Shown: positions 10,107 through 10,979 of the stretch, piece after piece
How the letters are laid out: every line of letters starts with the position of its first letter
Numbering within the stretch: the stretch's first letter is position 1
Made by a program: the position numbers and the translations under genes
DNA from: a virus
DNA: 44,263 nucleotides
Virus record (IMG/VR): IMGVR_UViG_3300047409_000063
Coordinates: 1-44,263 of that record
Strand: one strand, 5' to 3'
The notes under the pieces: model-generated
Seen by the model: the letters and a program-made list of their open reading frames with translations, nothing else
Database searches by the model: none
What the model was told of the DNA's origin: nothing

Positions 10107-10328
10107 ATGAACGACTATGAGATGTTATTCTCACCGGGCGGTCTTATCCCCGTGAACGTCGAGACAACCGGGCACCTCGTGCAAGAGGTGGTGAGGCTCC
10201 GCGAGATATTGAAAAAGATCGAATATGCTTCGCGCAAGGACAGCCTGACCGAATCTGAGCGGCTGGAAAGCGTGCGGATTGTATTGACCCGAGAGGGCTT
10301 CACTCTCTCGAATGGAGAGCGCGGATAG
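10107..10328 (+). CDS. Hypothetical protein upstream of the ribozyme element
   Basis: A 73-residue acidic, helical protein, MNDYEMLFSPGGLIPVNVET at the start. Its stop codon TAG (10326-10328) lies inside the left arm of the large inverted repeat, so the ribosome finishing this gene would run into the stem. The function is unknown. Confidence 0.6.
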   Translation: MNDYEMLFSPGGLIPVNVETTGHLVQEVVRLREILKKIEYASRKDSLTESERLESVRIVLTREGFTLSNGERG

Positions 10329-10507
10329 GATTTAGAGCGTGGGTGTGCATGGCTCCGATGTGCAGCACACATCTGGCCCGGCACTTTTTAAGCGCCTGAT
10401 GATCGCCCGAGAGGGCGTGAAACCCCTTCCAAAAGGGTTGCGCGGAGTGGTCCCAGCCGGGGAACAACTGACCACCAGTCGGAGCCACCTACGCTCTAAA
10501 TCCTATC
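10324..10507 (+). repeat. 184-nt inverted-repeat element enclosing the ribozyme
   Basis: GATAGGATTTAGAGCGT (10324-10340) is perfectly complementary to 10491-10507. Further in, GGCTCCGA (10351-10358) pairs with TCGGAGCC (10479-10486) and CCCGGC (10377-10382) with GCCGGG (10456-10461). Local alternatives are GATGTG/CACATC (10357-10373) and GTGGTC/GACCAC (10447-10475). Together they can fold the whole non-coding gap into a long, branched stem with the hammerhead at its tip. A transposon-like origin (terminal inverted repeats) is an alternative reading. Confidence 0.8.
10392..10443 (+). ncRNA. Probable hammerhead ribozyme (type I)
   Basis: The core elements occur in order. Stem I is GCGC (10392-10395) with GCGC (10440-10443). 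CTGATGA lies at 10396-10402. Stem II is CGCCC-GAGA-GGGCG (10404-10417) with a GNRA-type loop. GAA(A) lies at 10419-10422. Stem III is ACCC (10422-10425) with GGGT (10435-10438), extended by two pairs past a C/A mismatch. The cleavage base would be T10439, after the required U (NUH rule). One deviation is a U/U pair at the first position of stem II. Hammerhead ribozymes of this type are known from phage-related bacterial DNA. Cleavage would cut the early mRNA 108 nt before the next gene. Confidence 0.75.
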
Positions 10508-10541
10508 ACACCACTCCTGACCGAACACCGAAAGATAGGAG
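10501..10541 (+). promoter_or_regulatory. Possible ribosome-site sequestering pair
   Basis: TCCTATC (10501-10507), the end of the right arm, is perfectly complementary to GATAGGA (10534-10540), which carries the ribosome binding site AGGAG of the gene at 10548. The same TCCTATC also pairs with GATAGGA of the left arm (10324-10330). The two pairings exclude each other, so the element could act as a switch. Confidence 0.5.
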
Positions 10542-10547
10542 AACAAT

Positions 10548-10979
10548 ATGGGCTGCGATATTCACATGGTCCTTGAAGAACGGGACGATGAATTTGGCTG
10601 GGTCGGCATCAACGCATTCCACGGACACCGGGACCGCAAGGGCAGTTCGTCGTGGCCCGGCGCAACCGATCGTCACTATAAGCGATTTGCCGCCCTTGCC
10701 GGTGTCCGGGGTGAAGGACCTGAACCCAAGGGCATTCCGGACGATGCCAGCCCGTTGACCCGCCTAGAGATCAAGGGATGGGGAGGTGACGGCCATTCCC
10801 ATTCATGGCTTCCGATTTCCGAGGCGGCTAAAATCTTCTCGACGAGATTTTATGAAACCGAGATGCCTCTCGATCCCAAAAGCTATGAGGCTGACTACCC
10901 GGCTGAATTTTGGTTTGGTGCATCTACCGATACTGCATCCCTGGAAAACTATCGTCTGATTTTCTGGTTCGACAACTAG
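10548..10979 (+). CDS. Phage protein with MGCDIHM start, downstream of ribozyme
   Basis: A 143-residue protein. The start MGCDIHMVLEERDDEFGW and the middle GWGGDGHSHSWLPISE match a common phage family of unknown function; conserved Cys, Asp and several His suggest metal binding. The ribosome site GATAGGAG precedes ATG 10548 and is complementary to the right arm of the ribozyme element, so its translation may be controlled by that structure. Confidence 0.8.
   Translation: MGCDIHMVLEERDDEFGWVGINAFHGHRDRKGSSSWPGATDRHYKRFAALAGVRGEGPEPKGIPDDASPLTRLEIKGWGGDGHSHSWLPISEAAKIFSTRFYETEMPLDPKSYEADYPAEFWFGASTDTASLENYRLIFWFDN

Follow-up and report, generated by a model that had tools for sequence, protein, structure and literature searches.

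Hammerhead ribozymes have been known in phages since about 2010 and have no accepted function there (PMC3088659, PMC6155905). The type I hammerhead (RF00163; PMC3088659) combines a CUGANGA and GAAA core, an A15.1-U16.1 pair and H at position 17 with three stems, the molecule being open at stem I, and the phage ribozyme described here shares all of these traits. In contrast to that class, however, it is embedded in a larger conserved RNA with two pseudoknots, frequently has A-A or U-U at positions 10.1/11.1, and in the window falls below the Rfam thresholds. ROOL and GOLLD are likewise structured RNAs of phages and prophages, often near tRNA islands, with no function assigned; they are several times larger, many GOLLD RNAs exceeding 800 nt (PMC12286853) while the core of the present RNA measures about 100 nt, and the present family differs from them by an optional ribozyme and by circular permutation. 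RNAs C and D of phage T4 (rnaC and rnaD) are comparable by annotation as small stable RNAs inside a phage tRNA cluster. Other small phage RNAs, pseudo-ToxI (PMC3475682) and the Racr anti-CRISPR RNAs (PMC10651486), target host defence in trans through mimicry; unlike such decoys, the present RNA has no resemblance to a host RNA that we could find.

The window is the whole stretch of viral DNA that was analysed, 44,263 nt of IMG/VR record IMGVR_UViG_3300047409_000063. Positions 10324-10507 represent one member of a structured RNA family in which the hammerhead is one module of a larger RNA. An earlier note had placed a hammerhead in the leader of the gene starting at 10548, and its positions for the core, the GAAA, the cut, the arms, the ribosome site and the gene start were all correct on recheck. 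The features are as follows.

10324-10342, plus strand: 5' arm of P1, a closing helix of 19 bp formed with 10489-10507 (fold and helix search)
10343-10348, plus strand: 5' strand of pseudoknot PKa, GUGUGC, pairing with 10365-10370, with the conserved GUGG (10339-10342) just before it
10350-10358, plus strand: 5' strand of P2, UGGCUCCGA, pairing with 10479-10487
10359-10364, plus strand: conserved linker UGUGCA, UGACAU in the other subtype (alignment and tally)
10365-10370, plus strand: 3' strand of PKa, GCACAC, pairing with 10343-10348
10371-10383, plus strand: conserved AUCUGG, the 5' strand of P3, CCCGGC (10377-10382), and an A; near-invariant
10392-10395, plus strand: 5' strand of stem I, GCGC, pairing with 10440-10443; stem I varies in a compensatory manner
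10396-10402, plus strand: hammerhead core CUGAUGA; the CUGANGA-GAAA core is intact in 76 parsed members
10403-10418, plus strand: stem II, a U-U apposition (10403/10418) followed by CGCCC/GGGCG and a GAGA loop
10419-10438, plus strand: GAA, then stem III, ACCC/GGGU, from A15.1 (10422) to U16.1 (10438)
10439-10440, plus strand: predicted cut after U10439 (H17), which would leave a 5'-OH on G10440
10447-10452, plus strand: 5' strand of pseudoknot PKb, GUGGUC, pairing with 10470-10475, with the conserved CGYGGA (10441-10446) just before it
10456-10469, plus strand: 3' strand of P3, GCCGGG, and the conserved GAAYAACU; near-invariant
10470-10475, plus strand: 3' strand of PKb, GACCAC, pairing with 10447-10452
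10479-10487, plus strand: 3' strand of P2, UCGGAGCCA, pairing with 10350-10358
10489-10507, plus strand: 3' arm of P1 with the terminal UCCUAUC (fold and helix search)
10514-10541, plus strand: small hairpin of CUCCUG (10514-10519) with UAGGAG (10536-10541) over the ribosome site (fold)

The core of about 100 nt thus comprises the helices P2 and P3 (the latter 10377-10382/10456-10461) and two 6-bp pseudoknots, PKa and PKb. P2, P3 and the hammerhead (10392-10443, its GAAA at 10419-10422) are nested, while PKa crosses P2 and PKb crosses P3. The 5' module runs GUGG-PKa-P2-PKa'-AUCUGG-P3 and the 3' module CGYGGA-PKb-P3'-GAAYAACU-PKb'-P2'; P2 and P3 hold both modules together and PKa and PKb knot them. 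Two subtypes occur whose features co-vary, with UGACAU or UGUGCA in the PKa loop and CUAGG or CAGG after PKb. The GATAGGA and TCCTATC arms on which the earlier note had focused are merely the base of the 19-bp P1 that closes this pseudoknotted RNA. The TAG stop (10326-10328) of the upstream open reading frame 10107-10328 falls within the left arm of P1.

The assignment of the ribozyme to type I stood in its topology and its cut site, both supported by 76 aligned relatives, and did not stand for the canonical closing pair of stem II. The Watson-Crick 10.1-11.1 pair is absent from the window, where the U10403/U10418 mismatch opens stem II. As U-U at this position is reported to occur in natural, active hammerheads and to be the mismatch that is tolerated best (PMC3088659), the window ribozyme is, judged by its sequence, a hammerhead-type variant and not a canonical type I member. 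Taken alone, the hammerhead stretch is weak evidence, since Rfam returned nothing at the gathering score and no ribozyme family at E ≤ 10 for the window, the 63-nt stretch folds no better than its shuffles (z -0.9), and U-U stands where stem II expects G-C. The whole 233 nt, on the other hand, folds far better than shuffled sequences (z -5.4; 0/200 shuffles reach this value) because the hammerhead is nested within long helices. It is the homologous sequences that mark the motif as real. Stems I-III, open at stem I, surround the core with covariation in the family alignment, and a CUGANGA and GAAA core with an NUH cut site, never with G17, is present in the window and in 76/76 hammerheads of the family.

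The core was detected by blastn in the Arthrobacter phages Constance and Karkharias and in Enterobacter phage SDFMU_EhYP; reading these three side by side, conserved blocks flank the hammerhead and complementary pairs change jointly. Patterns of the conserved blocks were searched over IMG/VR and over bacterial and archaeal genomes, the hits were parsed for structure and identical copies were dropped, and the resulting family of 104 distinct copies (93 in standard order and 11 circularly permuted) was gathered by conserved motifs, whose sequence conservation is therefore partly built in. Nearly all of these copies lie on phage contigs; named phages that infect Enterobacter, Arthrobacter, Mycobacterium and Microcystis carry the element as well, and the held-out Mycobacterium phages Gaia and phiGD24-3 and Microcystis phage Mwe-JY26 were recognised at 83-123 bits. 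In the species genomes of bacteria and archaea, 84,980 in number, a 36-bp pattern found 6 stretches, so that the element is rare in bacterial genomes by this measure, and the plasmids searched gave no match. One further match, a weak one of 28 bits, came from a survey of 385 alphaproteobacterial genomes (L305, 1501-1637, minus strand); its 5' module is conserved and its hammerhead-like insert altered, and it is possibly a divergent or decayed member.

A covariance analysis of related phages, the route that the earlier note had suggested, bore the structure out, as the core covaries and a model built from relatives with no hammerhead, or with a non-hammerhead insert, recovered the window at E 7e-17, the hammerhead appearing as a single clean insertion in the match. 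PKa, for which 38 different 6-mers occur, is paired at 6/6 positions in 89/93 members, falling to 11% when partners are swapped between members; PKb likewise has 6/6 pairs in 89/93 (14% after partner swap), and P2 has at least 7 bp in 85/93 (8.7% after swap). The covariation score reached 0.605 in 13 members lacking a functional hammerhead, against 0.193 for shuffled and at most 0.142 for slid alignments, and 0.418 against a control of 0.116 in 34 members with a hammerhead. In the 13 members just mentioned, all 234 of 234 cells of PKa, P3 and PKb were paired. The support for P3 is thinner than for the other helices because P3 is otherwise near-invariant, and it comes from alignment A2 and from the held-out phages, with compensatory changes to CCCAGC/GCUGGG and CCCGAC/GUCGGG, since in the MAFFT alignment A1 the P3 columns are shifted, and stem II and GAAA are partly misplaced in some rows. 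All four predicted helices, P2, P3, PKa and PKb, are backed by covariation. P1 is more variable, reaching at least 10 bp in 34/65 members with a hammerhead and 11/28 standard members that lack one, so that about half of the standard members are without a P1 of this length; a P1 of 14-28 bp is frequent among members away from tRNA genes.

The hammerhead itself occurs at one fixed point in 65/93 standard copies and is absent from 28. This point, at the tip of P3, invariably adjoins the 3' module on its 5' side; the 28 standard members lacking the ribozyme have other inserts there, which range from about 9 nt to unrelated hairpins. In a structure-aware parse of 76 hammerheads, the A15.1-U16.1 pair was kept in 76/76, and position 17 was C in 59, A in 14, U in 3 and G in none, which points to selection for cleavage, although the 76 sequences are not fully independent. 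The sequences of stems I-III diverge greatly among members with pairing retained. Positions 10.1/11.1 were G-C in 41, A-A in 25 and U-U in 7, and a non-G-C combination stood in 33/76 where G-C is a strong rule; from these sequences, ribozymes with A-A, U-U or other non-G-C combinations could be slow. Degenerate hammerheads were also seen, in L019, in L038 and in Mycobacterium phage Gaia (L295, 2465-2618), where the scaffold is intact and the ribozyme core has decayed to UUGAUAA. Presence and absence of the hammerhead call for 17-18 state changes on a poorly resolved tree of the core alone, at least 5 of them forced by well-supported branches, and by this reckoning gains or losses at this fixed site have been numerous.

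The earlier note had further proposed that TCCTATC (10501-10507) can pair either with GATAGGA at 10324-10330 or with the identical GATAGGA at 10534-10540, which contains the ribosome site of the gene with its ATG at 10548, and that hammerhead cleavage may toggle between the two as a translational switch. The 7-nt complementarity to the ribosome site is real, its excess over chance being borderline (shuffled-arm p 0.03). The competing helix over the ribosome site, however, is not supported energetically. In an energy calculation that leaves out pseudoknots, making TCCTATC pair there comes at a price of 12.7 kcal/mol relative to the optimal fold, so that the two structures are not of comparable stability. 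Nor would the cut change which pairing wins, as the halves would stay bound (-28.7 kcal/mol) and the predicted probability of the alternative helix is 0 both uncut and cut, rising to about 0.34 only for a fully separated 3' product. Among 37 members with P1, complementarity to a ribosome site is notable in the window alone, L018 being set aside as a tandem copy; by this comparison of sequences, complementarity between the P1 arm and the ribosome site is not shared across the family. The element is missing from seven phage loci that carry relatives of the downstream gene, members inside tRNA arrays have no gene to control, and the element turns up in places as unrelated as tRNA arrays, a capsid-tail gap and permuted contexts. 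On the grounds of energetics, of the relatives of the downstream gene and of the arm complementarity in the 37 members, a ribosome-site switch was rejected as the main function, and we regard it as exceedingly improbable. According to the fold, the local hairpin at 10514-10541 could mask the ribosome site in front of the 10548 gene with no involvement of the ribozyme.

In the window the element lies in an early operon, 1.2 kb downstream of an integrase, and no tRNA was found there. The Enterobacter phage element is located downstream of the capsid gene and upstream of tail tubular protein A, and no downstream gene is common to the members. The combination of phage origin and tRNA island known from ROOL and GOLLD is nevertheless seen in the family, though not in the window: a tRNA gene lies within 150 nt of 28/104 members, the nearest one on the same strand in 28/28, while the other 76/104 have no tRNA gene within that distance. 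The arrays that hold members contain 11-28 tRNAs. Between tRNA-Gly and tRNA-Lys, the element fills an exact gap of 98 nt in L029, a member that has no hammerhead, and occupies 111 nt in L013, and a permuted copy of 180 nt sits exactly between tRNA-Gly and tRNA-Ser in L119, from which it follows that tRNA processing would release the RNA precisely. In the Arthrobacter phages L004 and L005, at about 1900-2200, tRNA-like T-arm sequences that ARAGORN did not call flank the element. Two phage contigs carry a tmRNA gene within several kb of the element (L088, 3523-3882, and L098, 10261-10608; Rfam tmRNA, 116 and 89 bits).

The 11 permuted copies, which include the Enterobacter phage group, Bordetella trematum (L238), L062, L119 and L124, represent the same ring opened elsewhere, in the order hammerhead, 3' module, P1 as a hairpin and 5' module, with the hammerhead still directly 5' of the 3' module. 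It follows that the RNA ends are not fixed. Permutation needs 3 changes on the core tree; to judge from the sequences, it may have had a single origin. Tandem copies are a natural route to permutation, and hammerheads would be expected to cut a tandem transcript into permuted monomers. Such tandems were observed in L018 (11150-11447), running on into L075 (1-130), and in L257 (minus strand), with two copies 172 nt apart.

Taken together, the element looks like a stand-alone RNA gene and not a switch for the next gene, and we consider it probable that it is a trans-acting phage RNA gene of the ROOL/GOLLD kind with an optional self-processing ribozyme. Its ends would be freed by tRNA processing in tRNA arrays and, elsewhere, by processing at the long P1. 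The hammerhead would serve as a self-processing device, giving the 3' module a start with a 5'-OH; cleavage would nick standard-order RNAs into two strands that are still paired and would trim the 5' end of permuted copies. Decay routes that require a 5' monophosphate could be slowed by such an end. By analogy with ROOL and GOLLD in the tRNA islands of phages, the product is most likely a stable RNA that is made in infected cells and has a structural or decoy role. A narrower form of this proposal, which we hold only tentatively, is a self-splitting, permutable RNA of phage tRNA islands with two paired strands, the hammerhead making the 5' end of the second; here the state of the core or a bound factor would set the cut, and the target would lie in host defence or translation.

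Other readings explain part of these data. Gene-flanking hammerheads of phages have been proposed as transcript processors (PMC3088659), and with members in polycistronic tRNA arrays and operons the element might be a cis cutter that splits phage transcripts into units, the RNA having no further role. This is unlikely, as 28/93 standard members without a hammerhead keep the whole core with the same covariation, and as the cut halves in standard order would remain joined by P1, P2 and P3. The frequency of these hammerhead-less members also counts against a natural aptazyme or riboswitch, in which the pseudoknotted core would sense a ligand or protein and set hammerhead activity; the short linker that joins the hammerhead to the tip of P3, as in engineered aptazymes, and the conserved unpaired AUCUGG and GAAYAACU, which could form a pocket, would suit such a device, yet the lack of a constant downstream gene and of an expression platform in the permuted forms makes it equally doubtful. 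The patchy occurrence of the hammerhead, the tandem copies in L018/L075 and L257 and the wide host range might instead suggest that the ribozyme is a mobile or selfish unit, moving from phage to phage and lodged in the scaffold by chance. We find this very improbable, given that the scaffold persists without the hammerhead, that the insertion point is always identical and that the hammerhead stems are very different between members.

Several described RNAs were compared directly with the family. Rfam searches of the window, L004 and L006, 14 member loci, PaP3 and T4 found the scaffold covered by no family, and the ROOL and GOLLD models matched neither the window nor the member loci. The hammerheads of PaP3 and Bcep176 tested in PMC3088659 were rejected as members, with no convincing match to the family models; the Bcep176 match was partial (13.6 bits) and overlapped an annotated CDS on the opposite strand. 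T4 rnaC and rnaD were also rejected, neither family model finding them and no hammerhead being seen. In the open PMC set, the conserved strings matched only an unrelated Aspergillus paper and a search by topic found no description, and so the scaffold family is apparently new to the literature, the hammerhead part being of a known kind.

At least 76 phage hammerheads thus belong to one definable RNA family. Because scaffolds with the ribozyme, scaffolds lacking it and permuted ones all occur, natural pairs offer a way to test what the cut does. If the RNA is stable and trans-acting, the tRNA islands of phages would have a compact class of RNA in addition to ROOL and GOLLD. The Enterobacter phage relative L006 scored 28.7 bits with Rfam Hammerhead_1, below the gathering score of 34, and such subthreshold scores, together with the frequent A-A or U-U at the closing position, suggest that many ribozymes of this kind escape the hammerhead models in current use.
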